Shown here one piece after another: positions 1,771 to 28,081 of a stretch of DNA of 64,000 nucleotides. Position 1 is the first letter of the stretch, and each line of letters begins with the position of its first letter. A model generated the notes under the pieces. That model did no database searches. It was not told the origin of the DNA and was given only the letters and a program-made list of their open reading frames with translations. The position numbers and the translations under genes were made by a program. Where the stretch lies: positions 1-64,000 of the forward strand of contig JAHHHB010000025.1 in NCBI GenBank assembly GCA_019359545.1. Reading direction: 5' to 3'. The DNA comes from Desmonostoc geniculatum HA4340-LM1 (GTDB lineage: Bacteria; Cyanobacteriota; Cyanobacteriia; Cyanobacteriales; Nostocaceae).

Positions 1771-1878
1771 TTATAAACAGATGCGCCACAATTGACCACT
1801 CCAGTATCAGTCTCAGGTCGGCATTGTGGCAGCATATGGCAAATTAAACATTTTCAGTCTGAGAAGAGGAAGAATTTT

Positions 1879-2412
1879 ATGAACAAACATGCGAACTTCT
1901 TGCTCAAAGTTTGTTTGAGTAGCTTGGTTTTTACGGCATCGATGGTAACAATCAACTCAGCTAGTATTTCTGCAACTGAAACACAATCATCAATTACTAA
2001 GTCTGCTCATAAAAATGCCTGTGCAGGTAAAAATCCCTGCGCTGCGAAAGCCAATTCTGTAGGCGGGCCGTTAGCTAAAGAACTTCAGGGTAAACCAGTC
2101 GTGGTGGATGTGTTTGCGACTTGGTGTCCTGGCTGTAAGAATATTGCCCCCACCCTATCCCAATTAAAACAGGAATATTCCGGTAAGGTAAATTTTGTAG
2201 TCTTGGATGTAACCGATAAAGCCAAGCTCAAACAGACCGAAGCAATGGCGCAAAGATTAGGTTTAGGTAAATTTTTGGAAGCTAATAAGAGTAAGACAAG
2301 TACAGTGGCGATCGTTGACCCAGCTACTGGTGACATTTTAGCCCTGTACCAAAATAATTCTAATAAGGCTGACTACACCAAAGTCCTTGAAACCGCTTTG
2401 GCGAAAAAGTAG
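1879..2412 (+). CDS. Secreted thioredoxin-fold protein (TlpA-like), copy 1
   Basis: A 177-residue exported thioredoxin. The chosen ATG has a purine-rich Shine-Dalgarno (AGAGGAAG) before it and gives an N-terminal signal segment (about residues 5-30, LLKVCLSSLVFTASMV); an in-frame start at 1792 would bury that signal. The thioredoxin active site is FATWCPGCKNIAP, so the redox motif is CPGC rather than CGPC. Before the domain sits a cysteine-rich stretch with KNACAGKNPCAAK. It is followed by a close paralogue (2554) and a CcdA/DsbD-type membrane protein (3129), which would supply electrons to periplasmic thioredoxins. Inferred role: periplasmic or lumenal disulfide reduction. Confidence 0.88.
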   Translation: MNKHANFLLKVCLSSLVFTASMVTINSASISATETQSSITKSAHKNACAGKNPCAAKANSVGGPLAKELQGKPVVVDVFATWCPGCKNIAPTLSQLKQEYSGKVNFVVLDVTDKAKLKQTEAMAQRLGLGKFLEANKSKTSTVAIVDPATGDILALYQNNSNKADYTKVLETALAKK

Positions 2413-2553
2413 TTAAATTGTGGCTTGGCCTCATCTTTAGGGGCAAAGCTAGCTTTTGAATTTCAGTGAACTACCCAACACCCATCTGAGTGAAAATGTA
2501 CGCCAAGACTGATTGTGGCAGCATTACACAATTAAAGTATGAAGAGAAACCCA

Positions 2554-3096
2554 ATGTACAAAAACAAATTTTTTCTGAGCCTACTGTGCTTGAGTGGTCT
2601 GGTTTTGACAGTATCATGCAGTCCAACGAAATCAGATAATATTTCTCAAAATCAAGCTCCATCAACTACGAATGTTGCTGTTGCAAATCCCTGTGCAGCT
2701 AAAAACCCTTGTGCTGGTAAAGATGCTGTTAAATTAACCTCTGTAGGAAATCCTCTAGCTCAAGAACTTCAAGGTAAACCTGTATTGGTAGATGTGTTTG
2801 CTACTTGGTGTGCTGGCTGCAAAAATATTGCTCCTACCCTGTCCCAATTGAAACAGGAATATTCTGGTAAGGTCAACTTTGTGGTTTTGGATGTAACAGA
2901 TAAAGCCAAACTTCAAGAGACACAAGCTCAAGCCGAAAAATTAGGCTTGGGGAAATTCTTAGAAGCTAATAAGAGTCAAACAAGTACAGTGGCGATCGTT
3001 GACCCGGCTACTGGCAAAATTTTAACAATCTTCAAAAATAATCCTCACAAGGCTGACTACACCAAAATCCTTGACTCTGCTTTGACGAATATTTAG
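2554..3096 (+). CDS. Thioredoxin-fold lipoprotein (TlpA-like), copy 2
   Basis: A paralogue of the preceding gene (180 residues from this start), sharing most of the thioredoxin domain: FATWCAGCKNIAPTLSQLK in place of CPGC, and the same AIVDPATGKIL region. The N-terminus differs: a hydrophobic stretch ends in LTVSC, a lipobox with Cys about residue 22, so it should be lipid-anchored. A KNPCAGK motif again precedes the fold. The ATG at 2554 has an AAGAGAA upstream like copy 1; ATG 2539 would add five residues. The leader DNA TTGTGGCAGCAT occurs before both copies, showing that the duplication included the upstream region. Confidence 0.88.
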   Translation: MYKNKFFLSLLCLSGLVLTVSCSPTKSDNISQNQAPSTTNVAVANPCAAKNPCAGKDAVKLTSVGNPLAQELQGKPVLVDVFATWCAGCKNIAPTLSQLKQEYSGKVNFVVLDVTDKAKLQETQAQAEKLGLGKFLEANKSQTSTVAIVDPATGKILTIFKNNPHKADYTKILDSALTNI

Positions 3097-3128
3097 TCTC
3101 CATCTCTTCATCACTTAAGGCTAATTTC

Positions 3129-3980
3129 ATGAAACCAATATCTCAGTCGTCAACTGAGCAACCCTCTTCTCGCCGTTTCCAAGTCTCGAAAAAATGGTTA
3201 GTTTACGGTGGATTGGGATTGCTCTCCCTTGTTATAGTTCTGACTTTGGGGCCTGTAATCAGTCATCCGATTGAACGAGTGATTTCCATTGTCGAAAACC
3301 GTTATCAACAGTGGTTTAATCAACAGGACACAGCAAATCCCGTTGTGTTGTTACCTTTAGCGTTTATCGGTGGGGTGCTGGCTAGTATATCTCCCTGTAT
3401 TTTGGCACTTTTACCAGTTAACCTCAGTTACATCGGCACACTAAAAATTAAATCCCGTTGGGATGCTTTTAGTAAGGCGGGTTTGTTTGTGCTGGGAGCA
3501 GTGACGATTTTAAGTCTGTTTGGTTTAGTCTCATCTTTTGCTGGTGCGGTGATGGTGGAGTATCGAGGCTATATCAATATAGTTGTTGGATTGATTATGG
3601 CTGTGATGGGTCTGTGGTTGATGGGTGTGGTAAATTTGCCCCTACCGCAGATGAATGTGAATCTCCCCCAGGCTGGGCCTTATGGAGTGGGTTTGACTTT
3701 TGCTTTAGTGAGTTCTCCTTGTGCTAGTCCGGTGCTGTTTGGTGTACTAGCGGCGGCGGCGGCTACAGGTTCGCAGGTATTGGGGACTTTGACGATGGTT
3801 AGCTATGCACTTGGTTATACTATCTTGATTTTTTTGGCGAGTTTATTTACGGGATTGGCGAAACAGAGTAAGAAGTTGTTGAAACATTCCGAGGGAATTA
3901 TCCGCTTTGGTAGTCTGGCACTGATTCTAACTGGGGCATATTATCTGTTTACCGGTACTCAATGGTTCGTGGGAGGTTAA
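3129..3980 (+). CDS. CcdA/DsbD-family thiol-disulfide transporter membrane protein
   Basis: A 283-residue integral membrane protein with an N-terminal membrane segment (about residues 24-45) and then six hydrophobic segments typical of CcdA/DsbD-beta. The two conserved Cys that carry electrons across the membrane are visible in ASISPCILALLPVNLSYIG (near residue 88) and LVSSPCASPVLFGVLAA (near residue 198). It lies 32 bases after the thioredoxin lipoprotein and ends just before a thioredoxin-reductase remnant, so the original unit was probably cytosolic reductant, membrane carrier and periplasmic thioredoxins. The extra N-terminal segment is unlike the shorter cyanobacterial CcdA of cytochrome c maturation, so I do not give that symbol. 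Confidence 0.87.
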   Translation: MKPISQSSTEQPSSRRFQVSKKWLVYGGLGLLSLVIVLTLGPVISHPIERVISIVENRYQQWFNQQDTANPVVLLPLAFIGGVLASISPCILALLPVNLSYIGTLKIKSRWDAFSKAGLFVLGAVTILSLFGLVSSFAGAVMVEYRGYINIVVGLIMAVMGLWLMGVVNLPLPQMNVNLPQAGPYGVGLTFALVSSPCASPVLFGVLAAAAATGSQVLGTLTMVSYALGYTILIFLASLFTGLAKQSKKLLKHSEGIIRFGSLALILTGAYYLFTGTQWFVGG

Positions 3981-3983
3981 ATC

Positions 3984-4309
3984 ATGGTCGAGGATCTGGT
4001 AATTATTGGTTCTGGCCGGGCTGGTTATACCGCCGCTATCTATGCGGGACGCGCTCAACTGCAACTCAGCTAATCATTGTTAAATTTGTAGCTCCCTACT
4101 GTCCTGCCTGTGAAACACTTAAACCTGTGCTACATCAAATAGCTGAGGAAAACACAGGTAAAGTGCATTTGGTTGAACTTGACATGAGCGAAGAACCTGA
4201 GTTAGCAATTAACTATGGTGTCAGAAGCGCACCAACAGTAATATTAGTTAAACAGCAGCAAACACTAGCACAGATTGCTGGATTGAAACCGAAAAAACAG
4301 TATGCAGAC
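3984..4309 (+). pseudogene. Internally deleted NADPH thioredoxin reductase-thioredoxin fusion
   Basis: From the ATG at 3984, with a GGGAGG ribosome site overlapping the ccdA-like stop, translation gives 29 residues ending at TAA 4071-4073. They match the start of thioredoxin reductase (MVEDLVIIGSGRAGYTAAIY; family consensus GSGPAG). Immediately after, in another frame, a thioredoxin domain begins (LIIVKFVAPYCPACETLKP) and runs through the cis-proline loop GVRSAPT to GLKPKKQYAD. That order, reductase N-terminus then C-terminal thioredoxin, is that of the NTRC-type fusion, so about 290 residues of the reductase have been lost and the frame shifted. The thioredoxin frame stays open to 4438 but has no start of its own except one inside the upstream gene. 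Confidence 0.8.
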
Positions 4310-4344
4310 ACAGATTCAATCTGCACTCTAAAACAGGTGAATAA

Positions 4345-4392
4345 ATGTCTGAAACTTGTTGCTCTGGGGCTAAAAATTCCGGCGTTGTATAA
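4345..4392 (+). CDS. Possible 15-residue Cys-Cys leader peptide
   Basis: A short reading frame with AGGTGA about 5 bases before its ATG encodes a 15-residue peptide beginning MSETCCSGAK, and its TAA ends 2 bases before the ATG of the cysteine-dioxygenase-like gene. Adjacent Cys codons (TGT TGC) in a translationally coupled leader before a cysteine-degrading enzyme invite the idea of cysteine-responsive control. It may also be a chance frame or part of the decayed region upstream. Confidence 0.35.
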   Translation: MSETCCSGAKNSGVV

Positions 4393-4394
4393 TT

Positions 4395-5000
4395 ATGGAA
4401 AGTCAAGATTGGTTAGTGGCAGACGATGGCAAGTATGAAGCCTGGGCAAAGCTGGCGGTTAATTTAGAATTATCCACAAGTCAATATCGGCTGTATCGAT
4501 TTTTAACGGATCTGGAAGATATTCTGCATAAATTTCAGAGCGATCGCTACCGATTGCAAGCGATTTGTCCCTTAGTAAGGCGGTTGTTGACCAGTTCGAC
4601 ATGGTTGCAAGGTGAATATCTTGAACCCGACCCCCAAACAGGTTGGTCAGTACTCACCCTATACGATGAACCTGATTTTCCCTTGACAGTGCAGACAGTT
4701 GCTTGGTTGCCAGGAAGAGTATCGCCCATTCATAATCACGCTACCTGGGGGATTGTAGCACTGATTAGTGGAGAAGAAAAAAATACCCTATGGAGACGGA
4801 CTGATAATCATGGTGGAATTGAGAAAGTCGGCGAAATTATCTTAACTCCAGGAGAAATTATTAGCTTAATGCCAGATGCCATTCATAGTATTGAAGCACT
4901 CGGTGAGGAACCGACTATTAGCTTCAATTTGTATGGCGAAACCAACTACGAACAGCGATTTGAATTCGATCCAGTTGCTGGTACTGCAAAAAACTTTTGA
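4395..5000 (+). CDS. Cysteine dioxygenase-like cupin protein
   Basis: A 201-residue single-domain cupin of the cysteine dioxygenase type I family, which oxidises cysteine thiol to the sulfinate with a mononuclear iron. Iron ligands are visible as the HxH in RVSPIHNHATWGIVALISG (about residues 113-116) and the later His in MPDAIHSIEALG; the fold's GxIxxL segment (ILTPGEIISLMPD) is present. The second half matches well, while the N-terminal 80 residues are lineage-specific. The substrate could be another small thiol such as 3-mercaptopropionate; sequence alone does not decide. It lies next to thiol-redox genes, which fits sulfur metabolism. Confidence 0.8.
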   Translation: MESQDWLVADDGKYEAWAKLAVNLELSTSQYRLYRFLTDLEDILHKFQSDRYRLQAICPLVRRLLTSSTWLQGEYLEPDPQTGWSVLTLYDEPDFPLTVQTVAWLPGRVSPIHNHATWGIVALISGEEKNTLWRRTDNHGGIEKVGEIILTPGEIISLMPDAIHSIEALGEEPTISFNLYGETNYEQRFEFDPVAGTAKNF

Positions 5001-10555: not shown

Positions 10556-11836
10556 ACCTTACAGCGTTTTTCATCAAGCGAAGAACTGGGAGATGAACAA
10601 CCATCAGCGTTAATGGTTTTTGGTTTGGAATCAGTTAAAGATATCGATACAGTTCTCACTTCAGCTAACCAAGTACGGGAGGAATTTAGAAAAAATTTTC
10701 CCTTCCCGGTGGTGTTATTAGTTAATGACCAAGTTCTGCAAAAACTGATCAGATTAGCGGCAGATTTCAAGAATTGGTCAACAATAATTCCTACTGCGAT
10801 CGCTACCACTGATTTAATTAAATTAATCAACCAAACTGCTGAGTCCGTTTTTGCCCAAGTTTTAGATGCTGGTGCTGGCAAATTTGTTGATAATTCCGCA
10901 CTCAATCTCGCAATTGGTTCGCCGCACCGCCTGGAACTGGAATCAGCACAAGCTGAACTACAAACACGGGGTGTGAAGTTAGACGCAAAACTAGAAGCCA
11001 GTTTAGAATTTGTTCTCGGTCGAGATGCTGTTTCGATGGAACAGTCACGCCAGCATTATGAACGCAGTCTAACACTTTGGCAGGAGATTTCTCAACTAGA
11101 GCAGCAAGGATGTGTACTGTACAATTTGGGTTTATGGTGGCGTACTTATGCCGTGCAACATTTAACAAAACAGCAACCTGCTTGCTTACAAGCTAAAGAT
11201 TATTATCAAAAATGTCTAGAGGTATTTGAACAAGCAAATCGTCCCGACTTAATAGCAAAATTTATCAATGCTTTAGGAGAAGTACTGCAAAAACATCAAA
11301 AGTTTAAAATTTACAAGACCCTTAAGGTAGAAGATGAGCATAAGGTAGAAGATGGGCATAAAAGCTGGGTTTATAGTGTTAGCTTTTCACATAATGGCAA
11401 AATCATTGCCACAACCAGTAATGATAAAACTGCCATCCTTTGGAAGCAAGACAGTAAAGGTGAGTTTCGCTTCTCCAAAAAATTGAGAGGACATAACGTT
11501 GAAGTCCAAAGTGTAGCCTTTTCATCAGACGATCAAATCATTGCCACTGCCAGTGATGATAAAACGGTAAAACTCTGGAAGCTAGATGGTACTTTTATCA
11601 GAACTCTTAGTGGGCATAGCGCAGAGATATTAAGTGTCAGTTTTTCACCTGATAACAAAACTCTAGCCTTGGGCAGTGCTGATAATACTGTGATTTTGTG
11701 GCATTTGCAGCAGCTAGATTCTCTAGACCAGCTAGATGATTTACTGGCGCATGGCTGTGGTTGGTTACGTGATTATCTGAAGAATAACGCGAATTTGAGC
11801 CAGAGCGATCGCCATCTGTGCGACGATATCAAGTAA
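10556..11836 (+). pseudogene. 5'-truncated WD40 repeat protein
   Basis: The coding frame is open from 10532 to 11836, and family-like sequence begins at once (TLQRFSSSEELGDEQPSAL) before the first ATG at 10613. The middle (about residues 20-200) is the region found before beta-propellers in large cyanobacterial signalling proteins (AFQ-type helical, KDYYQKCLEVFEQANRPDL). Then come only three WD40 blades (WVYSVSFSHNGKIIATTS; VQSVAFSSDDQIIATASDD; ILSVSFSPDNKTLALGSAD) and the usual tail LDDLLAHGCGWLRDYL. The N-terminal effector domain is missing and too few blades remain for a closed propeller, so internal deletion between repeats is also likely. Confidence 0.7.
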
Positions 11837-18358: not shown

Positions 18359-19594
18359 TTACCTATATGTACTATTGGTTATGTATCTACTTACCAAGCG
18401 TATTGGTCGGATTAAGTAGTATAAGAAAGAAAGACCAGATGGCAATGGGAAAACTTCTCGGTCTGCTTGATTAGAATTAGTGATTACCAGCCTGGTTGTA
18501 AAACTCAAAAATTGCCACACTAGATAAACACGAACTGGCATTCTGCTAAGTGGGCCATCGATCATCAAGTGTTGAAAAAAAAGTTGAATCAACCGTGGAG
18601 TTTTAACTTCAGTGAAAAGCTGTTTCTGCATTCGTAAAGCATAAATTACAATTGTTGGATCGATTTGGATCTGTTGTTGAATAGCCTGCTTGAGTTGGTC
18701 TGGTAAAGGCGTATTCAGGAGAGTATTAACTATTAACAGACTAATAAAGAATGGTCTTTTAAGTTCCAGACTCTTTACTTTGTGCAATAATTCTTCCCAA
18801 TCTGATGTCTGTTGAATACGCAATAATTCAGCTAAATCGCAAATTTGAGCCAAAGACTCTCTACCTTCATTAACGGCTCTGGCAACTTGTACAGCAAGAA
18901 TAATCAACAAATCATCAAAAGATAAATCGATGATAGATTCACCATTGAGAGATAAAGACCTGCTTCGTTGCCACAAAGTTTCAAAATCAGGAAGTTTAAA
19001 AGGAAAATAAGATAAAGGAGTCAATTCGGTGTGAAGATCCACCACTATTTCTGGTTTTTCGCTATGGACAAAAGTATGTTGCCAACCATAGTAGTCAGCT
19101 TGTAGTTGATATTTTTGAGCAATCAATAATTTTTGAGCTTTGACTATATCCTCTTGTTTTACCAAAATATCTAGATCGCTAAACTGTCTCATCGCTAAGT
19201 TGCCATAAACAGAAGCAGCTAAAACAAGTCCTTTGAAAGCAATTGCCGGAATTTTATTAGCTTCAAAAAGTTTAAGGATTTTAACCAATTCATGACTCAA
19301 AAATAAGTTGCGGCTAGCATTAGCGTGGTAGCGATTCCGCAGCTGAGTTAAAACTGTTTGGGGAATAGCTTCTTTGACAGTGGTATTGAGACTCTGGTAT
19401 AAGAGTGGTATTGTTCCATGATATGTTGCTATTTCTATGAGCAATGTCCAATCTATGTTTTGCTGGAGTAAAGTTTTAATTCGCTTTGCGGTTTCGGAGT
19501 CTATGTCAATTCGGGTACAACACAGAAGTAGCTCAATTTCTGGACGTTTAACCTTTATTGGTAATTGAATAATAGGCTGGTTTAAGGTAATCAT
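18359..19594 (-). CDS. Nucleotidyltransferase family protein of the RiPP-like cluster
   Basis: A 411-residue protein of the uncharacterised nucleotidyltransferase family PF14907. The motif is AFKGLVLAASVYGNLAMRQ followed by FSDLDILVKQEDI, where the D-x-D binds metal, and a later VVDLHTEL supplies the third Asp. Members often occur in lasso-peptide and related RiPP clusters with B1/B2 proteins and HPr-kinase-like proteins. It is the last gene of the minus-strand cluster, 7 bases after the ABC exporter. A role in nucleotidylating the peptide or a sugar is possible but unproven. Confidence 0.85.
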   Translation of the reverse strand: MITLNQPIIQLPIKVKRPEIELLLCCTRIDIDSETAKRIKTLLQQNIDWTLLIEIATYHGTIPLLYQSLNTTVKEAIPQTVLTQLRNRYHANASRNLFLSHELVKILKLFEANKIPAIAFKGLVLAASVYGNLAMRQFSDLDILVKQEDIVKAQKLLIAQKYQLQADYYGWQHTFVHSEKPEIVVDLHTELTPLSYFPFKLPDFETLWQRSRSLSLNGESIIDLSFDDLLIILAVQVARAVNEGRESLAQICDLAELLRIQQTSDWEELLHKVKSLELKRPFFISLLIVNTLLNTPLPDQLKQAIQQQIQIDPTIVIYALRMQKQLFTEVKTPRLIQLFFQHLMIDGPLSRMPVRVYLVWQFLSFTTRLVITNSNQADREVFPLPSGLSFLYYLIRPIRLVSRYITNSTYR

Positions 19595-19601
19595 AAATTA
19601 C

Positions 19602-21419
19602 TCACTTATAGTGTTGGGCTTGCGTTTCAAACAAGTCTGCATAGCTACCACCCAGATTTATCAGTTCCTCGTGAGTGCCGCTTTCCATGATTGAACCGTT
19701 TGCCATTACGTAGATACAGTCAGCCATTTTGACGGTTGATAAGCGATGGCTAATGAGGATAGCAGCTTGATTTTTAATAAGTTGGCGGAAATTCTGAAAC
19801 ACCTCTTCTTCGGCTTTAGGGTCTAAAGCACTAGTTGGTTCGTCCAACACAATTAACTGTGAATCTCGCAAAAATGCTCTGGCTAAAGCAATTTTTTGCC
19901 ACTGACCGATGCTCAATTCTTCCCCTTGTTCAAACAATTTACCTAGTATGGTGTCATAACCTTGAGGTAGCTTACTGATGACATCATCAGCACCGGAACG
20001 ACGGGCAGCAGCGATGATTTTGTCGTGGGCAAATGGCAGATTAATATTTGCTATCGAAATGTTTTCTTTAGCAGTCAGATGATATTTTGTATAATCTTGA
20101 AAAATGACGCTAATTTGACTGCGGAGGGCAGCAATTTCAAATTGGCGTAAATCTATGCCATCAATGGTAATACTTCCAAAAGTGGGATCGTATAAGCGAC
20201 AGAGAAGCTTAATTAAAGTAGTCTTGCCGGAACCGTTTTCTCCTACCAACGCGACAACTTTTCCTGGGCGAATAGTTAGATTAATATCCTCAAGTGCCTG
20301 ACGCTTGGTATTTGCATATTGAAAGCTGACGTGATTAAACACAATGCCATGTTGCATTGGTATGGGAAAAGGTTTTGGATGTAACGGTTCTACAATCTTT
20401 GGTTTCAAATCTAAAAATTCATATAAGTTTGCGAGAAATAGGTTGTCTTCATATAAACCAGACAAACCACCCAAGAGACTTTTTAAGTCGTTTTGTCCCC
20501 GTTGCAATGCTTGGTAATAGAGTACTAAGTCACCAAAACGGATAGTGCCTTGCATGGTTTGATAAATAATGAAACCATAGGCAGCAAAAACTAAAGTTGT
20601 CGCCGTTGCTTGAGCGCCAAGATTAGCTACAGATTGTCTTTTAATCATGGCTATGTTTTCATGGTATAGTTGCGATCGCATACGCATATACCACTCACTA
20701 AAGAAAGAACCCAAATCAAACAAGCGAATTTCTTTAGCGTGTTGTTCTGTAGTCAGTATCCGACTCAAGTACCCTGCTTGGCGTTCTTGGGCTGTCTTTC
20801 GGCGCTGCCAATGATACATGATGCCGGAGTATCTCACCCGCACTGCCAAGGCCGGAATCGCGGCAACAAATAAGATAACTCCTATTGCCCAATGCAATGA
20901 CAGTAGCAACCCCAGCATCGCCACCAAAGAGATACTACTCAAACATAGCCATGCCAAACGATGTAGAATTTGCCCTGGTCGAGAAGGAGCTTCTTTTTGC
21001 GCTCGTTGCAAAGCATCATAATATTCAGAGTTTTCGTAATACTCCAGGTCTACCTCAATTGATTTAGCATGGAGGACGTTTTGCATGTAGTCAGTTAGTT
21101 GCTGAGATTGGGCGGCATACACCAGTTCAGTCAGGGAAGAACACAGGTTAGTTACCAGGGTGATAGCAACAAAGAAGCCAAGCAAAAGTAATACTTGATT
21201 AAAGGCGGCTCCTTTGTCGGCAACATTAACACTGGCGGCTATTGTATCTACGATGAGTTTGGTGAGGTAAAGAGAGAGTAGAGGCAATAAACCTTGAATA
21301 ACCAAAAGTGCAACCAAAGCAATAGTCAAACGAGGACTACTATTCCAAACTAGGCGCAACGCAGGCAGAATGCGTAAGCTTTGCTGGATTTTATATCTTA
21401 AAGTTTTGCCTGCTTTCAT
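19602..21419 (-). CDS. ABC exporter (fused membrane and ATPase domains)
   Basis: A 605-residue half-transporter: membrane segments at roughly residues 25-310 and a nucleotide-binding domain after about 355, with Walker A VALVGENGSGKTTLIKLL, signature ELSIGQWQKIALARAF and Walker B IVLDEPTSALD. It has no N-terminal C39 peptidase, so leader removal must be done by another protein, which fits the B2-type protease encoded just upstream. ATG 21419 lies 4 bases after the B2 stop; an earlier start at 21488 would overlap that gene. It probably exports the mature peptide. Confidence 0.92.
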   Translation of the reverse strand: MKAGKTLRYKIQQSLRILPALRLVWNSSPRLTIALVALLVIQGLLPLLSLYLTKLIVDTIAASVNVADKGAAFNQVLLLLGFFVAITLVTNLCSSLTELVYAAQSQQLTDYMQNVLHAKSIEVDLEYYENSEYYDALQRAQKEAPSRPGQILHRLAWLCLSSISLVAMLGLLLSLHWAIGVILFVAAIPALAVRVRYSGIMYHWQRRKTAQERQAGYLSRILTTEQHAKEIRLFDLGSFFSEWYMRMRSQLYHENIAMIKRQSVANLGAQATATTLVFAAYGFIIYQTMQGTIRFGDLVLYYQALQRGQNDLKSLLGGLSGLYEDNLFLANLYEFLDLKPKIVEPLHPKPFPIPMQHGIVFNHVSFQYANTKRQALEDINLTIRPGKVVALVGENGSGKTTLIKLLCRLYDPTFGSITIDGIDLRQFEIAALRSQISVIFQDYTKYHLTAKENISIANINLPFAHDKIIAAARRSGADDVISKLPQGYDTILGKLFEQGEELSIGQWQKIALARAFLRDSQLIVLDEPTSALDPKAEEEVFQNFRQLIKNQAAILISHRLSTVKMADCIYVMANGSIMESGTHEELINLGGSYADLFETQAQHYK

Positions 21420-21423
21420 ATTT

Positions 21424-21867
21424 TTAAAGATGCTCTTTTGTAAAAGATGCCAGTTGGCTAAAATGAGAAAGGTCTGCAACATCGCCAATTACAACCTGTC
21501 CCTGATTTTCTAACCACGCATGAGCCTTTAACTCTCCTTCTTGACCTTTGGCAACACCAATGCAGAGATTAGATTTATAACCGTGGCGACTCATGAAAAA
21601 CTGGCAAGTCAAGGCACGCGCCAGACACTTGACACCAGGCATATAATGACTGCTCACTTCAACAGCCCAGATGATTTTGTCAATAGAGACGTGGTATTTT
21701 TCTTGGCATTTAGGTTTGGTGTTACTTAGCCTTAATAGAAGTTGATGCAAGGTTTTAAATGACAGCAACCACAAACCTAATCTAACTAATGTCAATACAA
21801 TAAAAGTTTTAATTAAAAGTTGTTTTTTTTGATAATCTAATTTGAGAAACTTAGATAAATGCTTCAT
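21424..21867 (-). CDS. Lasso-peptide B2-type transglutaminase-fold leader protease
   Basis: A 147-residue protein of the lasso peptide biosynthesis B2 family (PF13471). The Cys-His-Asp triad is visible: GVKCLARALTCQFFMSRHG, KAHAWLENQG and VIGDVADLSHF. A hydrophobic N-terminal segment (about 18-38, LLIKTFIVLTLVRLGLWLL) suggests membrane association. In lasso pathways B2 cleaves the leader after recognition by B1; here the B1-like partner is at 27743-28033. It is coupled closely to the exporter downstream. Confidence 0.88.
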   Translation of the reverse strand: MKHLSKFLKLDYQKKQLLIKTFIVLTLVRLGLWLLSFKTLHQLLLRLSNTKPKCQEKYHVSIDKIIWAVEVSSHYMPGVKCLARALTCQFFMSRHGYKSNLCIGVAKGQEGELKAHAWLENQGQVVIGDVADLSHFSQLASFTKEHL

Positions 21868-21902
21868 TTTTACTTAAATATTCAGTTCTTATTTTTTAAA
21901 TT

Positions 21903-22874
21903 TTAAGCAGATAGAGTCAACCGTGGTTTTGAATAATTATCATTTTTTTTCAAAGATGATGCAATAAAAAAATTAATAGCCGACTCTGCTGACCACTGAG
22001 GATGAAAGTCTAAACATGAAGATATCCTGGAAATATCAGCTTGTGAATGTTGAATGTCTCCCAAACGTGGAGAAGCAAAATTAATCTCTGGTTGCCATTG
22101 AGGGAAATGATTTTTGAGGATATCAATCAACTGTACTAAAGAAGTAGATTTTCCAGTTCCTAAGTTGCAAATTAAGGATGAGCCAGGAGTAATATTCGCT
22201 TTTAATGCTTGAGCAAAAGCCTTTACTACATCTTTAACATAAATAAAGTCTCTGGTTTGATTACCATCGCCATAAATAGTAATTGGTAAGCCACGTTGCA
22301 TAATATCAACAAATCGGGAAATTACGCCAGAGTAGCTTGAATTAGGAACTTGTCTAGGGCCAAATACGTTAAAAATTCGTAAGCCAACAAATGAAAAACC
22401 TAGTTGTTTAGCAAACATACTAGCGTATTGTTCACTCACCAGTTTTTGTAAGCCGTAGGGTGACATAGGAGAGGTTTTTTGCTCTTCTGAAATTGGTAAT
22501 TGAGTGAGATTGCCGTATACAGATGCGGAACTGGCAAACACTAACTTAGGAATAGTTAAAGCTTGACACAGTTGAATTACAGCCAGAGTTGCCGAAAGAT
22601 TATTGTGATGAGCTTCTAGAGGGCGAAATAAAGATTCTGTCACTGAGGAAATAGCTGCTAAATGGGCAACACCATCAAATTTTTCTGTAAAATCTTCTGG
22701 TTGACATATCAAAATATCTTTTTGGATAAACGTGAGACGAGGATGTTTCGATAGGTTTTGTAAGCGTCCAGTAGACAGATTATCAACTACAGTGACGCGA
22801 TGACCTTCTGATAATAGTTGTTCTGTAAGATGAGAGCCAATAAATCCGGCTCCGCCAGTCACAAGAAAAATCAT
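21903..22874 (-). CDS. NAD-dependent sugar epimerase/dehydratase
   Basis: A 323-residue extended short-chain dehydrogenase. The Rossmann motif VTGGAGFIGSHL is at the N-terminus, and the catalytic triad is in ASSASVYGN (Ser) and SPYGLQKLVSE (YxxxK). It is of the UDP-glucose 4-epimerase class and would supply an activated sugar. ATG 22874 is chosen because the dinucleotide fold starts there; the frame extends 50 codons upstream into the glycosyltransferase gene. Together with two glycosyltransferases, it suggests that a glycosylation step belongs to this cluster. Confidence 0.9.
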   Translation of the reverse strand: MIFLVTGGAGFIGSHLTEQLLSEGHRVTVVDNLSTGRLQNLSKHPRLTFIQKDILICQPEDFTEKFDGVAHLAAISSVTESLFRPLEAHHNNLSATLAVIQLCQALTIPKLVFASSASVYGNLTQLPISEEQKTSPMSPYGLQKLVSEQYASMFAKQLGFSFVGLRIFNVFGPRQVPNSSYSGVISRFVDIMQRGLPITIYGDGNQTRDFIYVKDVVKAFAQALKANITPGSSLICNLGTGKSTSLVQLIDILKNHFPQWQPEINFASPRLGDIQHSQADISRISSCLDFHPQWSAESAINFFIASSLKKNDNYSKPRLTLSA

Positions 22875-22878
22875 GATC

Positions 22879-23781
22879 TTAAATTTGCTTGGTAGATATA
22901 GATAATTGCAATTCTTCATAATTGGCAGTTTCACCCCGCATTTCTCGGTAACGTTGCAAAACTCCACGGGCTTTGTCAATTTGATTATTTTGAATATAGA
23001 GATGGGCAAGTGTAAGGTAGAAATCATAAAAGCAGGAATCGAGAAAATGAGCAGAGATTTTTAGAAATTCTGGATTGCGCTCAATGACTTTTTCTTTAAC
23101 TCGCAGGTAGCTAACTAGAAATATTTCTTGATTTTTAGAAAGACTATTTGATGAGTTGCGATAACGTGCTAGAGGCTCATTTAAAAAATAAATCGGAAAT
23201 TTTTCAATCAGCCGTAACCATAAATCATAATCTTCACACGACCTCAGAGTCTCATCAAATAATCCCACTTGATTCAAACAGTCTCGACGCACAATAACCG
23301 TCAAAACTGGAATGTAATTATATTGGAAAAGAGTCCATGATACCTGAATATGAGGAGTAGGAAATACTGTATTATACGAATCTAGAAACAAATCTTTTTT
23401 ATCAGAAAAAAAGAATGAATCTGAATAGATTAAACCAAGATGTGGATTTGCTTCCAAGATAGGAATTTGTTTTTCTAACTTCTGAGGTTCCCAGAGGTCA
23501 TCGTCATCTAAAAAAGCGATATACTTTCCTTGAGCAGAGTAAATGCCAGTATTACGAGCCGCAGAAAGTCCTTGATTGGTTTGATGAATCGTGGTGATGC
23601 GATCGCGATCGCTAAATTGAGCCAGCACTTGTGGAGTGTTATCCTGAGAACCATCGTTGATGACGATAATTTCGTAGTCTTCGTAGGTTTGTGCCAGAAC
23701 GCTGTTAATTGCCTGACTGACAAGATGGCCACGCTGATATGTAGGAATAATAACACTGACGGCTGGCTTAAAAGCTTGCAT
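22879..23781 (-). CDS. Family 2 glycosyltransferase
   Basis: A 300-residue GT-A glycosyltransferase. The nucleotide-sugar domain starts SVIIPTYQRGHLVSQAINSV, with DxD-type IAFLDDDDLWEPQKLE and a catalytic-base region LRSCEDYDLWLRL. The C-terminal ~90 residues are helical (LAHLYIQNNQIDKARGVL), TPR-like. ATG 23781 places the fold 9 residues from the start. It is 4 bases before the epimerase gene and 52 after the kinase-like gene. The acceptor may be the RiPP core or a cell-surface glycan. Confidence 0.9.
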   Translation of the reverse strand: MQAFKPAVSVIIPTYQRGHLVSQAINSVLAQTYEDYEIIVINDGSQDNTPQVLAQFSDRDRITTIHQTNQGLSAARNTGIYSAQGKYIAFLDDDDLWEPQKLEKQIPILEANPHLGLIYSDSFFFSDKKDLFLDSYNTVFPTPHIQVSWTLFQYNYIPVLTVIVRRDCLNQVGLFDETLRSCEDYDLWLRLIEKFPIYFLNEPLARYRNSSNSLSKNQEIFLVSYLRVKEKVIERNPEFLKISAHFLDSCFYDFYLTLAHLYIQNNQIDKARGVLQRYREMRGETANYEELQLSISTKQI

Positions 23782-23833
23782 GTTTAAAAATTTGCTTAGT
23801 AAATATAGGCAGATATTCAAATTACTGGTATTG

Positions 23834-24847
23834 CTAAATCAAAGTATGAATCAGGCGTAAGTTTTCTAAAATAACATCATAAATTTGCCCCAAACTTCCC
23901 AAATTATCAGGAAGTAATAACTCCCGCACAGGAACAGTCTTTGCCAACTGACCTAATTCTTGAAACTCTTGTCTACACTGTTGAGAAGTGAGGAAAGCAC
24001 GCCCATAGGAATTGAACATTAGATGCTTCATTGCTTCAGGCAGAGAAAGAGAGTTAATTATAGGTGCTGTGAGATTTGAGTCACGTTCTCCTAATATGTA
24101 CACAGCAAGTAGTGGCAAAGCTTGGGATTGAAACTGCCACTGTTCTCTATCTTTTATTTGCAAATCTAAGAAACGTTTATCTAGACTAGTTGATACTAGT
24201 GATAAATCTTCTATTGAGCCGTGAATGGCATTTACAGAATTAGGCCACAGGCGTAGACGAGGATAAGCAGACTGTACCCAAAACCTTTTTTCATCAAGAA
24301 TAAGTGCGGCAATATCATCTGCCAATACGGAGAATCCACGGCTAGCCAACGCTGCTGCTGTGGTTGATTTACCCGCCCCTGATTGTCCTAAAATGGCAAC
24401 GGCGCTGCCGTCAAACGCAACCACGCTGGCATGAAGACAAGTCACTCCCCGCAGCCGTAACAGATGACCAAGTACACAACCCAGCAGCAAAGATACCGCA
24501 TCTGTAAATAGTGCATCTCTAGACCAAAAACCCCAAACTTGACTACCATCAGGATTCAAGATGAATTCCAAGCAATCAACCCCATCAAAAGAGCGTATTC
24601 TCCAGTAAATACCGTCATCCCGATGCGCTGTCCACAAATGGAAGCCTGTTTGTTGATACCACTCAAGCGGCACATTCCAAAAAGCTTGGTCGAGTAATGG
24701 CGGTTGACTCTGCTGTTCACCAACTAGGTGAATAGCAACATCTATCGGTGCAGAACTGTTAACAGTAACTAACCCTGGGAGCAGTCTATTAATAGACAGG
24801 TTGAGTCCATAAAATTGATAGCAATAATTATCGTTTTTAATCGACAT
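23834..24847 (-). CDS. HPr kinase-like protein of the RiPP-like cluster
   Basis: A 337-residue protein whose C-terminal half resembles HPr serine kinase: P-loop VAILGQSGAGKSTTAAALAS and FSVLADDIAALIL, with HASVVAFDG just before. No HPr substrate system is expected in cyanobacteria. Homologues in lasso clusters (the paeninodin type) phosphorylate a Ser of the precursor peptide. The N-terminal ~150 residues are typical of the RiPP-associated group. It is the first gene downstream of the precursor genes on the same strand, so phosphorylation of the Ser/Thr-rich core is a reasonable inference. Confidence 0.85.
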   Translation of the reverse strand: MSIKNDNYCYQFYGLNLSINRLLPGLVTVNSSAPIDVAIHLVGEQQSQPPLLDQAFWNVPLEWYQQTGFHLWTAHRDDGIYWRIRSFDGVDCLEFILNPDGSQVWGFWSRDALFTDAVSLLLGCVLGHLLRLRGVTCLHASVVAFDGSAVAILGQSGAGKSTTAAALASRGFSVLADDIAALILDEKRFWVQSAYPRLRLWPNSVNAIHGSIEDLSLVSTSLDKRFLDLQIKDREQWQFQSQALPLLAVYILGERDSNLTAPIINSLSLPEAMKHLMFNSYGRAFLTSQQCRQEFQELGQLAKTVPVRELLLPDNLGSLGQIYDVILENLRLIHTLI

Positions 24848-25129
24848 TTAGTTGATCGACAACCTGACGGGGTGAAAATACGATTCGTAACCACTGGCTA
24901 CAGTGGCTACGAGGACATCTAATTCAACTATTGGTTGATATTAGTGTTGTTGTTATAGCGGTTATCGATTTTATGAAAACACTAAATTCCTTACTATACA
25001 AGCATTTTAGTAAAGTTTTTGTATCTCACTTAACTGCACACCGCTATAAAACTTGTTCACTTGATATGAAAAAATGGGAATTTACATGCGTAAAGTTGAT
25101 TAATTTTGTTTGTCTTTTTTTATACTGAT
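24848..25129. other. Spacer between precursor and kinase genes
   Basis: No additional precursor-like frame was found on the minus strand. A hairpin CCACTG-GCTA-CAGTGG at 24891-24906 could attenuate or terminate transcripts reading from the precursor genes, which would favour high precursor expression over the enzymes. Confidence 0.4.
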
Positions 25130-25288
25130 TTATTCAGGAAAAACTCCAGTAGTAGTACTTATGGGGAAGCCGGTGGTAGTGCCAAAACCACCACTACCAC
25201 CGACTTGTTGTGTCAAACCAGATATTTTTCCGTGAGCTTTCAATTCTGGCTCAGAATAGTTCTTTTTCGCGTTTTCAGATTGAGACAT
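25130..25288 (-). CDS. RiPP precursor peptide with lasso-type leader, copy 2
   Basis: A 52-residue peptide. The leader starts MSQSENAKKNYSEPELKAHG and continues KISGLTQQ, which fits the lasso leader rule Y-x2-P-x-L-x3-G-x5-T exactly. The core starts VGGSGGFGTTTG, goes on FPISTTTG and ends VFPE. It has no Cys, and no Asp/Glu near ring positions 7-9; the only acid is the last residue. The ribosome site is AAGGGTT and the first ~45 upstream bases are nearly identical to those of copy 1 (25574-25717). Both sit upstream of a kinase, sugar enzymes, B2 protease and exporter. Confidence 0.85.
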   Translation of the reverse strand: MSQSENAKKNYSEPELKAHGKISGLTQQVGGSGGFGTTTGFPISTTTGVFPE

Positions 25289-25400
25289 TTGAGTAACCCT
25301 TATTTTTTGTGTTTTCCTGATTTGGAATTATTCAAAAGCAATTCAAAATTAATTACTTCTGGCTTTTCTAATTAGAATTAGAATGGTGAATCAAAAATGA

Positions 25401-25541
25401 TTACCAAATCATTCGGTGGTGGGTATGAGTACTACAACTGTACTCATACCCACCACTACTACCGACTTGTTCTGTCAAACCAGATATTTTGCCGTAAGTT
25501 TTTTAAATAAGTCGGGAATTTTTGAAAAGTAAAACTTACAT
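25401..25541 (-). pseudogene. Broken third RiPP precursor copy
   Basis: Between the two intact precursors, one frame reads TYGKISGLTEQVGSSGGYEY, which matches the leader end and core start, but an in-frame TAA precedes it and the N-terminal leader is frameshifted. Upstream, a good GGAGGA ribosome site (25547-25552) is followed by ATG and at once TAA (25536-25541). The tail after the core start is new sequence (ending HHRMIW) formed by a perfect inverted repeat. Confidence 0.7.
25416..25456. repeat. 17-bp inverted repeat in the broken precursor
   Basis: GTGGTGGGTATGAGTAC-type arms at 25416-25432 and 25440-25456 with a 7-base loop TACAACT. The repeat replaces the core-encoding part of the third precursor copy. 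Confidence 0.75.
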
Positions 25542-25573
25542 AATTTTCCTCCAGCGGAAGAAAATGTATTTTA

Positions 25574-25717
25574 TTACGGAAGTCCCGTGATGGGTACGGG
25601 TCTTGTAGTACTAAAACCACCACTACCACCGACTTGTTGTGTAAAACCAGATATTTTGCCGTGAGCTTTTAATTCTGGCTCAGAATATTCCTTTTTTGCG
25701 TTTTCAGATTGAGACAT
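25574..25717 (-). CDS. RiPP precursor peptide with lasso-type leader, copy 1
   Basis: A 47-residue peptide. The leader begins MSQSENAKKEYSEPELKAHG and ends KISGFTQQ, the same as copy 2 apart from N10E and L25F, and fits Y-x2-P-x-L-x3-G-x5-T. The core starts VGGSGGFSTT like copy 2, then diverges to RPVPITGLP. It has no acidic residue at all, so the Asp/Glu-linked lasso ring is not possible. A conserved leader and conserved first eight core residues with variable tail is the usual pattern of duplicated RiPP precursors. It is the first precursor gene in transcription order. Confidence 0.85.
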   Translation of the reverse strand: MSQSENAKKEYSEPELKAHGKISGFTQQVGGSGGFSTTRPVPITGLP

Positions 25718-25741
25718 TTGAGTAACCCTTATTTTTTGTGT

Positions 25742-25923
25742 TTTCCCGATTTGGGATTATCAGATTATAAATATAGTACAATTCTCACGTTGTTATTTTT
25801 ATAAAGTTTGTGTAAAATGTTTGCTATTTTTGCTTATTAAGAATTGCAAATAAAAAACTAATTTTTGTAGATTTTAACCAATAAAAATTATTTACAAAAA
25901 TAATAATTAATAACGTTCGGTTA
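25742..25923. other. AT-rich upstream region of precursor genes
   Basis: No gene is seen; this is the likely promoter region for copy 1 on the minus strand. The CACAAAAAATAAGGGTTACT block just before copy 1 (25718-25745) is repeated almost exactly before copy 2 (25289-25315), showing that duplication included the translation start region. No promoter elements can be assigned with confidence. Confidence 0.4.
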
Positions 25924-26294
25924 AGAGGTTGTTTGAAAAGTGTTTCGTTGTAATCTTGGACACGTTTAGATCCCCCCTAACACCCCTTAAAAAGCAGGTC
26001 CGTTTCATTCGCTAGTCTGTGAGATTTGTCAAGGGGATATTCTCACGCAAAGACGCAAAGGCGCAAAGAAAAACAACATTATTTGGGCTTGAAGACGCAA
26101 AATTTTTTGCCCTAATTGTACGCTTGCCCTAAATTTTGATTTCTTTGACTCTTGCAATTTTAACCATTTTAGGGAATGAAACAGCCCTGCCCTTAAAAAG
26201 GGGGAAACCGGAATCAAAGTCCCCCTTAAAAAGGGGGATTTAGGGGGATCTAGAACGTTTTGCTACAGACAAGAGGACTTTTCAAACATCCTCT
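25924..26294. mobile_element. MITE-like element, 371 bp
   Basis: The ends AGAGGTTGTTTGAAAAGT and ACTTTTCAAACATCCTCT are inverse with one mismatch. There is no transposase frame. The interior holds CGCAAAGACGCAAAGGCGC-type and CCCCCTTAAAAAGGGGG sequences that recur in cyanobacterial intergenic DNA. It splits the B1/glycosyltransferase genes from the precursor genes of the RiPP-like cluster. No clear target duplication was found. Confidence 0.65.
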
Positions 26295-26382
26295 GAGGAT
26301 AATCTACAAGAATACTAGGCGAACTGCTAGAATAACCTAACATTTTCTAGATTTTGTCTGGTTGCATTATATTATCACTTAA

Positions 26383-26436
26383 CTAACCTACTTTTCTACT
26401 TAAGTGAAGCGTATTGTCATATAAATATAATTTCAT
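26383..26436 (-). CDS. Possible 17-residue peptide with a strong ribosome site
   Basis: An optimal Shine-Dalgarno, AGGAGGTG (26443-26450), stands 6 bases before an ATG that opens MKLYLYDNTLHLSRKVG and a stop. It is the best ribosome site in this part of the window, between the glycosyltransferase gene and the MITE. It could be a regulatory leader or the start of a gene cut off by rearrangement. It shows no lasso-type leader. Confidence 0.3.
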   Translation of the reverse strand: MKLYLYDNTLHLSRKVG

Positions 26437-26539
26437 GTTAAACACCTCCTAGAAGATCATTATTTCTTGAATTTTATGGTTAGTTATTTCGTCATTTATA
26501 TTTATAGGGAAGACATAATCAAACTTAATTATGGAAAAT

Positions 26540-27721
26540 TTAGGCAGAGATTAGCTTAGTAGTAGATGCTAAATCTTCATATATTTGAAATAGTCGCTTT
26601 TGTAAATTCGCCTCATCATATTGTTCGACGATCGCTTGCCGTGCTTTTGCAAGATGTGATTCTCTTTCTTGGGGAAGTTGATTGACAACTTTAATCATTG
26701 CCTTTGCCAAAGCTTCTGGGTTTTCAGATTCTACCAAAGTACAAAATTCCTCAATAAAAGTACCTCGGTAAGCTGGCAAATCACAGCTAATTACTGGCCG
26801 TTCGCAGGCAACTGCTTCAATGAGTGTCGAAGGAAAGGCATCACTGGTAGGATAATTGATAATTACATCGGCTAAGTTGTAGCCTGTAGGCATGAAAATA
26901 TAAGGTAGGCCAGGCATCCAGCGCAGGTTGTCTAATAAGCCAAGTTCTTCTGCTTGTTTGCTGATGCTTTCGTAAATAACTACTGCTTCTTCCCCACCGG
27001 CACGCCCTAGCTTTGAAAAGACGAGTACCGTTGGTTTGGTGAATTGGGGAAAAGCCTGTGCATAGGCTGTAAATATCTGCTCATGGTTATATATTTGAGA
27101 CCAACCACGGGGCGAAAGCAGAATTGTGGCTTCTTCATCAATCTTCAAGATTTCCCGTCGCCATTTTGGTAAATCTTTTGTGACTCCAGAGCGAAAATGT
27201 TTAGGGTTTGTCCCTAGAGGAATTAATTCTACCCGTTGTTCAGGGTTCAGTAGTGCTTTAGATTTTTCTATCAAATTGGGTGTTTCTACAATCAGCACAC
27301 CTGTATTCTTAAATACTTGGCTAACCATATCTATATGCTTGCTGGATTCCTTTTCTGGTTGTAGCAAATGATTTAAAAAGCCCCAAGCAGAGACAACAAG
27401 AGGTTTAAGATTTGCTAAGGTACAACAGTAGGCGTGCCAGCCAATGGCGTGAACATGGATAATATCAGGCTGGAATTCGTCTGCAAGCTGACGTAACGGC
27501 TCTGCCATTTCCTCCGCCATTTGGTCTTCATAAGGATAGGTATTAGTATATTTTTCTGCATAGTTTGGCCAAACAGTGGGGAAATAGCGGTAGTTTTTAG
27601 GAGGTTCGGTTTCATAGGGGTCTGCATCACCTAGTAGCCAAACTTCATAACCTGCTTTGACTGCCCAATCTAAGGGTCGTGTCAAGGCAATGCCTCCAGC
27701 ACCAATCATTAGTATACGCAT
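26540..27721 (-). CDS. Family 4-like glycosyltransferase
   Basis: A 393-residue GT-B glycosyltransferase. The N-terminal domain opens MRILMIGAGGIALTRPLDWA; the C-terminal donor domain has ILLSPRGWSQIYNHEQIF and the E-x7-E region SDAFPSTLIEAVACERPVIS. It is encoded 21 bases after the PqqD/B1-like gene on the same strand and so belongs to the same operon. Its acceptor may be the RiPP core or a surface polymer. Length and motifs are complete. Confidence 0.9.
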   Translation of the reverse strand: MRILMIGAGGIALTRPLDWAVKAGYEVWLLGDADPYETEPPKNYRYFPTVWPNYAEKYTNTYPYEDQMAEEMAEPLRQLADEFQPDIIHVHAIGWHAYCCTLANLKPLVVSAWGFLNHLLQPEKESSKHIDMVSQVFKNTGVLIVETPNLIEKSKALLNPEQRVELIPLGTNPKHFRSGVTKDLPKWRREILKIDEEATILLSPRGWSQIYNHEQIFTAYAQAFPQFTKPTVLVFSKLGRAGGEEAVVIYESISKQAEELGLLDNLRWMPGLPYIFMPTGYNLADVIINYPTSDAFPSTLIEAVACERPVISCDLPAYRGTFIEEFCTLVESENPEALAKAMIKVVNQLPQERESHLAKARQAIVEQYDEANLQKRLFQIYEDLASTTKLISA

Positions 27722-27742
27722 GATTTGATTATTTGCTTCAAG

Positions 27743-28033
27743 TTAAGAATCTGTAATTTCCACGAGTCCAGCTTTGACTAGGTTCTCAATAAATTTGAGT
27801 AAGTCTTGTTTTAATTTCTCTGGCTCGACATCATACTCTTTTAGCAAGGTGTCGTAAGCTGTCTGGATAGAATCTGACTCAGTTAGCGTAAAGAACATTT
27901 TTGTCCCAACTTCGTTTTGACTAAAATATTCTTCACTTTGCAGATTCAACAAAACTGACTCCCCTGCTAAGTCTTGAGTCAGAACGGTAGGAGATAAGGA
28001 TACTTTTTTATTTAAGACTATTTGTGTTGTCAT
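27743..28033 (-). CDS. PqqD/lasso B1-type leader-recognition protein
   Basis: A 96-residue protein from ATG 28033 (a start at 28081 would add 16 residues). It has the PqqD-like RRE pattern: strands VSLSPTVLTQDLAGESVLLN, then LQSEEYFSQNEVGTKMFFTL, and helices with EYDVEPEKLKQDLLKFIENL and a final LVKAGLVEI. In lasso pathways such B1 proteins bind the leader through its YxxP motif and present it to the B2 protease. Both precursors here carry that motif. It is the most upstream gene of the minus-strand cluster. Confidence 0.85.
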   Translation of the reverse strand: MTTQIVLNKKVSLSPTVLTQDLAGESVLLNLQSEEYFSQNEVGTKMFFTLTESDSIQTAYDTLLKEYDVEPEKLKQDLLKFIENLVKAGLVEITDS

Positions 28034-28081
28034 TCGTTGCAAGAGGTCATGATTGTAGTTGATTATAAGTTTTTTTGGCAT

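Follow-up and report, generated by a model that had tools for sequence, protein, structure and literature searches.

A cyclase-less, lasso-type gene cluster of Desmonostoc geniculatum and its relatives, predicted to make linear phosphorylated and glycosylated peptides

Contig JAHHHB010000025.1 of the cyanobacterium Desmonostoc geniculatum HA4340-LM1 (assembly GCA_019359545.1), analysed here over 64,000 nucleotides (the window), carries on its minus strand, at positions 18359–28033, a gene cluster with the leader-handling genes of lasso peptide biosynthesis and without a lasso cyclase. We propose, with a probability of roughly 0.6, that this cluster for ribosomally synthesized and post-translationally modified peptides (RiPPs) is derived from a lasso cluster, that the cyclase and the acceptor acid of the precursor were lost, and that its products would be linear, phosphorylated and glycosylated peptides. 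The proposal is built on which genes are present, on the lack of a cyclase and of the acid, on Ser5, Phe8, Thr10 and Thr11 as invariant residues of the core peptides, on purifying selection and on the descent of the kinase from lasso kinases. In the direction of transcription the order is B1, GT4-type glycosyltransferase, precursor, a dead precursor copy, precursor, HprK-like kinase, GT2-type glycosyltransferase, epimerase, B2, ATP-binding cassette (ABC) exporter and PF14907 nucleotidyltransferase (NTase). Genes were assigned by Pfam and NCBIfam profile scores against the family cut-offs, and every gene named in the original prediction was recovered as an open reading frame (ORF) with such matches at this place and on this strand.

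The kinase profile singled out 13 of the 217 genomes of the window's taxonomic family with more than 740 bits each, the next score being 254; because of this gap we regard the 13 clusters as a discrete family. Its members include Nostoc linckia z4, N. calcicola FACHB-3891, N. paludosum FACHB-159, Nostoc sp. ATCC 43529, Nostoc sp. FACHB-973, Desmonostoc muscorum FACHB-395, D. vinosum, Cylindrospermum sp. FACHB-282 and one uncultured cyanobacterium. The block from B1 to the NTase recurs in the 13 genomes; it is shared by the seven loci compared (L068 being incomplete; genomes and loci carry G and L numbers), and the remaining loci keep the same order. Among the compared loci the flanks are common only to the window and G361, and we draw the limits of the cluster accordingly; any further gene is common to two of the seven loci at most, overlapping antisense frames apart. 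When plasmids were searched for the kinase, eight weak partial matches came up, and no cyanobacterium was named among the organisms carrying them.

No cyclase was found in the window, as had been predicted, or in the cluster stretches of any of the 13 family loci, of which those of G324 and G470 lie on broken contigs. In the genome of the window (7.36 Mb, 99.9% complete), PF00733 gave five matches representing four real genes, none of them on the contig of the cluster; as candidates for a lasso cyclase they were rejected, with at most 230 bits against a cut-off of 525 and higher scores as asparagine synthetase. The original prediction had named a cyclase elsewhere in the genome, co-occurring with the set, as evidence that would tell against it. 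A lasso cyclase (NF033535) over the cut-off of 525 bits occurs in one of the 13 family genomes, G229, within a separate and complete lasso cluster (L107); the best cyclase score of the other 12 is at most 243 bits. All six near-miss proteins classified, from three genomes, fit asparagine-synthetase-type enzymes better than lasso cyclases. The full-length near-misses in G246 and G464, beside which no B1, B2 or precursor match was found, were dismissed on that score; L186 does carry other GT2-type genes. For the near-misses of the remaining nine genomes the score was the only criterion. Three divergent cyclases taken from related loci behave in the opposite way, the cyclase model fitting them better than the asparagine synthetase model. 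Elsewhere in the window's own genome (L007, C81:5000–24000), two asparagine-synthetase-like genes flank what by eye is a pyridoxal-phosphate decarboxylase-like gene, and paired matches like these two are found in several relatives.

The precursors lack the acid that a cyclase would use. In the window, precursor 2 (25574–25717, minus strand like all genes of the cluster) has a leader ending in ...GKISGFTQ and the core QVGGSGGFSTTRPVPITGLP, and precursor 1 (25130–25288) a leader ending in ...GKISGLTQ and the core QVGGSGGFGTTTGFPISTTTGVFPE; between them lies, judged from translation only, a decayed third copy (25434–25493, GKISGLTEQVGSSGGYEYSC). The leader, YSEPELKAHGKISG[LF]T, fits the pattern Y-x2-P-x-L-x3-G-x5-T of the original prediction. 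The free cores have calculated [M+H]+ values of 2402.151 and 1928.024; those of N. calcicola FACHB-3891 (L169) and N. linckia z4 (L168) are different peptides. Both precursors match the NCBIfam model lasso_cyano with 25.6 and 24.3 bits (cut-off 33), in a region that spans the leader and the beginning of the core, and no NCBIfam model scores above its cut-off for these two and one relative. The family has 30 precursors, one to four per genome, with 27 distinct cores. The 26 full-length cores share the head [QA]VG[GS]S[GR]GF[GSAD]TT, in which Val2, Gly3, Ser5, Gly7, Phe8, Thr10 and Thr11 are invariant and Ser5 is the sole Ser invariant across all of them (26/26); the tails are highly variable, with 26% Thr and 18% Pro. 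The 27th core (G324) lacks the first residues and the QVGG, reads SGSGGFGTT..., and was left out of the position table and of the set used below for the ratio of nonsynonymous to synonymous substitution rates (dN/dS).

For comparison we collected 89 cores from 52 loci, 87 of them distinct, each with a Met start, a penultimate-Thr leader, at least 12 core residues and a cyclase within 3 kb. An Asp or Glu at core position 7–9 is present in 1/27 family cores versus 70/87 controls, and cores without any acid make up 16/27 of the family versus none of the 87 controls; because the family cores are one lineage, 1/27 means one or few events, and a Fisher p-value overstates their independence. The prediction that the cores have no acid at 7–9 thus holds for both window precursors and for all but one of the family cores. 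A C-terminal Ser, the known phosphorylation site of lasso peptides, occurs in 0/27 family cores versus 17/87 controls, and neither Cys nor Lys occurs in any of the 27. Among related loci the position of the acid varies, from core residue 7 onward. The idea that Phe8 replaced an ancestral Asp8 was dropped, since it is position 9 that varies (Gly, Ser, Ala or Asp).

These results bear directly on the possibility that the product is a lasso peptide after all, made with a cyclase encoded elsewhere or with an unrecognised one. The real cyclase in another cluster of G229, the one core with Asp9 and the B1-B2 pairs that lie distant from any cyclase in other genomes of the order speak for it. Against it stand the 12 of 13 genomes without a lasso cyclase over the cut-off and the 16 of 27 cores without any Asp or Glu for ring closure, and we consider it very improbable. 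Since B1-B2 pairs do stand alone in the order, linkage alone proves little, and the acid-free cores are the stronger argument.

Purifying selection acts on most of the cluster. In one or two genome pairs each, dN/dS is 0.11–0.28 for the kinase, B1, GT4, GT2, the ABC exporter and the NTase (for B1, 0.15 between the window and L070). For the leader and core head, the proportions of synonymous and nonsynonymous differences are pS 0.26 and pN 0.024, giving a dN/dS of 0.077 (21 segments from 11 genomes) for a conserved leader-core stretch of our choosing; the small precursor genes are therefore selected as protein. Such values, and the maintenance of the set in 13 genomes with one to four precursors each, leave little room for a lasso cluster in decay, deprived of both cyclase and function. 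That explanation, which we rate as highly unlikely, would draw on the dead precursor copy beside the live ones, on the weaker constraint on B2, and on the epimerase, which is near full length in 10/13 genomes, a remnant in G229 and G094, and missing in G419.

B1 (27743–28033, 96 amino acids) is a PqqD-type RiPP recognition element (RRE) that scores 51.1 bits with PqqD (cut-off 23.4) and 52.1 bits with lasso_PqqD_Bac, under that model's cut-off of 80, and it matches the solved structure of TbiB1 (PDB 5v1u). We place its start at the conserved ATG at 28033 rather than at the longer ORF start at 28081 because in the relative L070 a stop lies shortly before the ATG. It was seen in 12/13 family genomes; in G324 its place lies beyond the contig end. 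The predicted leader peptidase B2 (21424–21867; lasso_biosyn_B2, 114.3 bits, cut-off 33) was found in all 13, as a single copy in the window's own genome. Of the Cys-His-Asp set originally attributed to it, the Cys and His are invariant in 13/13 family B2s and 62/62 cyclase-linked B2s, and the Asp does not stand. The column of the usual Asp, 12 residues after the His as in McjB, is Gly in 7/7 family B2s and 44/62 cyclase-linked B2s, and the neighbouring Asp of the window's B2 is Asn or His in 5/13 relatives, so that Asp was rejected as a conserved third residue. Since 44 of the 62 cyclase-linked B2s have Gly there too, this is no family-specific defect.

The origin of the parts was traced among the lasso loci of the order, in which 105 of 388 genomes have a B2 match and 46 a cyclase over the cut-off. 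Of 129 listed B2 places we examined the best-scoring 101, the window included; 62 have a cyclase in the stretch and 39 have none, where "cyclase-linked" refers to a profile grown from one cyclase that may take in divergent or asparagine-synthetase-like genes. B1, B2 and kinase occur together in 13 of these 39, among them seven family loci (the B1 of L068 being past the contig end). The usual order in cyanobacterial lasso loci is B1-B2-cyclase-precursor-kinase-ABC-NTase. Kinase, NTase and exporter are common in those that have a cyclase, and therefore these three alone mark no new class.

In a kinase tree of 73 rows with a midpoint root, the seven rows of the family are united in one clade (100/100) that is sister to four cyclase-linked rows and lies in a group of 21 rows (100/99), the other 14 of which are all cyclase-linked by the grown profile. 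At 13 of these 14 loci NF033535 matches with 292–663 bits, once over the cut-off of 525; for the 14th, L146, the best match of the genome is weaker (E 6.6e-56). Because the kinase nests among cyclase-linked lasso kinases, the cyclase and the acceptor acid were, judging by this tree, probably lost from a lasso ancestor. In quick trees, B2 nests in a set of cyclase-linked B2s other than the relatives of the kinase, and the group that contains B1 is mixed, B1 lying loosely with cyclase-linked B1s; since the three group differently, we regard the cluster as a probable mosaic, assembled from lasso parts minus the cyclase. The kinase tree requires at least six changes of cyclase state, some of the loci scored "no" lying at contig ends, which suggests that the cyclase was probably lost more than once.

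Six further loci carry the next-best kinases, of which L180, L181, L184 and L185 hold a cyclase and L182 and L183 have none in the stretch examined. In L180, L184, L087 and L149, whose kinases are near those of the family and whose cyclases score under the NCBIfam cut-off, the cores end in Ser (NNYAS, NLYAS, IYVS and VYAS), like phosphorylated lasso peptides. By eye, the leaders of L181, L183 and L185 (...LRKHGKVNDTT) resemble those of the family and are followed by cores with Phe-Asp, which may show the former place of the acceptor acid. Other cyclase-less loci look different. L076 (G055:C91) and L081 (G242:C42, a 7.3 kb contig) have B1, B2, two precursors, HprK and NTase with cores of only 8–12 residues, e.g. 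VPSGVPTTEVP and ALSQVVDN, and are possible sources of a second linear product type. In L079 (G173:C223) and L080 (G247:C1250), lasso-type leaders precede long (GGR)n-like cores next to B1-B2; L079 additionally has HprK, ABC and NTase, and neither stretch shows a cyclase. Lone B1-B2 pairs were seen in L137, L148, L159, L162, L163, L164 and L166 (f29 genomes), with no cyclase, kinase or convincing precursor near them; their genomes have a cyclase-like match elsewhere of 253–318 bits, under the cut-off.

The genes that would modify the core are the following. The HPr-kinase-like protein (23834–24847, 337 amino acids) has His139, Lys160, Asp177 and Asp178, invariant in 7/7 family kinases; a His-Lys-Asp-Asp set is reported as essential in lasso kinases (PMC9266682), and we equate the two by position within the motifs. 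The GT4 gene (26540–27721; Glycos_transf_1, 50.8 bits) has homologues at the equivalent place in relatives, and a search of the 101-locus set found it in six family loci only, the seventh (L068) ending at a contig edge. GT2 (22879–23820; Glycos_transf_2, 129 bits) is 79–96% identical to six relatives. The NAD-dependent sugar-nucleotide epimerase (21903–22874; Epimerase, 201 bits) belongs to an ORF reaching 23027, its domain beginning at about 22874. The PF14907 NTase-like protein (18359–19594; 194 bits, cut-off 31.2; compare PsmN and LppN) has a DLD motif invariant in 8/8 aligned sequences; the version in G094 is distant, as are both NTase and ABC exporter in G246. GT4, like the NTase, gave no solved-structure match. 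The ABC exporter (19602–21488; ABC_tran, 119 bits) probably starts at about 21422, overlapping B2; its best NCBIfam model is MsbA_lipidA (289 bits), all 25 models listed being below cut-off, and no C39 peptidase match was found among the best 25 of 29 Pfam families, in agreement with what had been expected of it.

From the gene content we propose the following route. B1 would bind the YxxPxL leader, and the kinase would add one or more phosphates to Ser5 of the core. B2 would cleave after ...GLTQ/GLTE, at the leader end marked by the penultimate Thr. The PF14907 protein together with GT4 and GT2 could then place sugars on the phospho-Ser, on the invariant Thr10-Thr11 or on the Thr/Pro tail, and the MsbA-like protein would export the product. 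These steps, their order and the sites of phosphate and sugar are all inferred. Lasso kinases are described as acting on a C-terminal Ser (PMC9266682), and the kinase of the linear polyphosphorylated peptides (LPPs) of Bacillota (Popov et al., May 2026, PMC13381572) as modifying a linear peptide at core Ser3, with Thr not accepted; Ser5 is the predicted site because the cores have no C-terminal Ser, because it is the only invariant Ser and because the LPP kinase uses Ser3. For the sugars, the precedent is pseudomycoidin, in which PsmK and PsmN are reported to phosphorylate and hexosylate a Ser, PsmN adding hexoses to the phospho-Ser (PMC9266682).

The peptide might instead serve chiefly to prime or anchor a secreted glycan, which we think doubtful. 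Kinase and NTase might then make a phosphate-linked sugar that GT4 and GT2 extend before the MsbA-like protein flips the peptide-glycan, a scheme to which we attach equally little weight. Two glycosyltransferases kept with the precursors, the MsbA-like exporter, a third glycosyltransferase-like ORF seen by eye in two loci (L069 and L073) and the position of LPP clusters, reported to lie often within capsule loci (PMC13381572), would suit such a role; the core tails are too variable for a shared anchor, and the compared loci have no further gene in common beyond the block described above.

Several observations weigh against our proposal of a lasso-derived cluster for linear phosphoglycopeptides. 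One core, that of L178 in G465 (11283–11462, minus strand), has Asp9 (QVGGSGGFDTT...), which could be an ancestral state or a back-mutation. B2 is under weaker constraint, with dN/dS of 0.63, 0.33 and 0.61 in three comparisons, and neither it nor the NTase has a relative among solved chains at the thresholds applied. The kinase scores 30.9 bits with Hpr_kinase_C, just below the Pfam cut-off of 33.3, and a very long-branch row, L145, sits at the midpoint-only root of its tree. The lone B1-B2 pairs mean that B1 and B2 can occur together away from any cyclase. Finally, in the account of the LPPs, LppK left an S3T variant unphosphorylated, and leaving LppN out when LPPs were expressed gave no detectable change (PMC13381572); due to these results, phosphorylation of Thr and action of the NTase are weak guesses.

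Outside the cluster, at 1792–4438, we noted by eye a tandem pair of thioredoxin-like genes followed by a DsbD/CcdA-like gene and a further thioredoxin-like ORF. A promoter scan gave matches at chance level only, and of the two RNA folds 5' of the precursors one is unremarkable and the other, between the dead copy and precursor 1, has a z of −3.5.

The cluster has to be compared first with lasso systems. It has a discrete B1 and B2, the Y-x2-P-x-L leader and the penultimate Thr, and it lacks the cyclase and the acid at 7–9. The cyanobacterial lasso loci appear to be the source of its kit, HprK and B2 nesting among them and B1 loosely so; unlike these loci, the family is without a cyclase, has GT4, GT2 and the epimerase instead, and keeps B1 and B2 apart. 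Paeninodin and pseudomycoidin share the HprK-like kinase, and pseudomycoidin also an NTase-like protein (PMC9266682). Paeninodin is matured by B1, B2 and C according to the same source, whereas the family has no cyclase, an acceptor acid in 1/27 cores and a C-terminal Ser in none. Glycocins likewise combine a glycosyltransferase, a small precursor and a possible O-glycan, but they are defined there by two nested disulfides (PMC9266682), while the family cores have no Cys and their leaders are handled by B1/B2.

We found no cyclase-less B2 cluster of cyanobacteria described in the literature searched. According to the RRE-Finder report, only about 4,000 of almost 8,000 proteins recovered as lasso-type RREs co-occur with peptidase and cyclase, and many of those without such partners were judged false positives (PMC7470986); from this figure, cyclase-less lasso-type clusters may be widespread. 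Mining genomes for lasso peptides by B1/B2 would, we infer, misname such clusters.

The closest known class is the LPPs, defined by an SpI-type leader peptidase, an RRE, an HprK-like kinase, an NTP transferase, an MsbA-like transporter and no cyclase (PMC13381572). Our cluster would work like an LPP cluster and is not one as defined. Common to both are the discrete RRE, the HprK-like kinase, the PF14907-type NTP transferase, the MsbA-like exporter, the YxxP leader, the lack of a cyclase and a Ser near the N-terminus of the core, and one could see in the cluster a strict-sense cyanobacterial branch of the published family in which the leader peptidase was swapped. We hold this to be unlikely. 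The leader peptidase is B2 instead of an SpI-type signal peptidase, and the archaeal-type signal peptidase model TIGR02228 has no match in the window's genome, the only one tested, while eight of 14 control genomes match, four of them over the cut-off. The leader, YSEPELKAHGKISGLT, misfits the LPP motif YxxPxVLxHQxIxFETxxS, and LPPs are called restricted to Bacillota, with RREs in a clade of their own (PMC13381572). Two conserved glycosyltransferases and, usually, the epimerase are further differences, and the kinase groups with cyanobacterial lasso kinases, in trees without LPP sequences, suggesting separate origin. We thus conclude that the cluster is probably of separate origin from the LPPs.

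The product class foreseen in the original prediction, one that reuses B1/B2 leader removal with probable sugar or phosphate on Ser/Thr, therefore survives in part: the absent cyclase, the lack of an acceptor acid in 26/27 cores, the invariant Ser and Thr and the retained kinase, NTase and two glycosyltransferases agree with it, but a similar cyclase-less class is already published, and kinase, NTase and exporter are shared with cyclase-bearing lasso loci. We see an even chance that the family is a separate, lasso-born RiPP class of Nostoc-like cyanobacteria in which cyclase and acceptor acid disappeared together, B2 was reused to release a linear peptide and phosphate and glycan replace the ring; that the dedicated phosphate and glycan would sit on the Gly-rich VGGSGGFxTT head is, to us, about equally balanced. 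If so, lasso kits repeatedly give rise to linear phosphoglycopeptides. The family shows B1/B2 leader handling that selection has retained in the absence of the lasso-defining reaction. The cluster makes it testable what a kinase-NTase-glycosyltransferase set does alone, and the 13 genomes, 12 of them without a lasso cyclase over the cut-off, are useful as hosts. Such a class of cyanobacterial peptides would be convergent with the LPPs of Bacillota.

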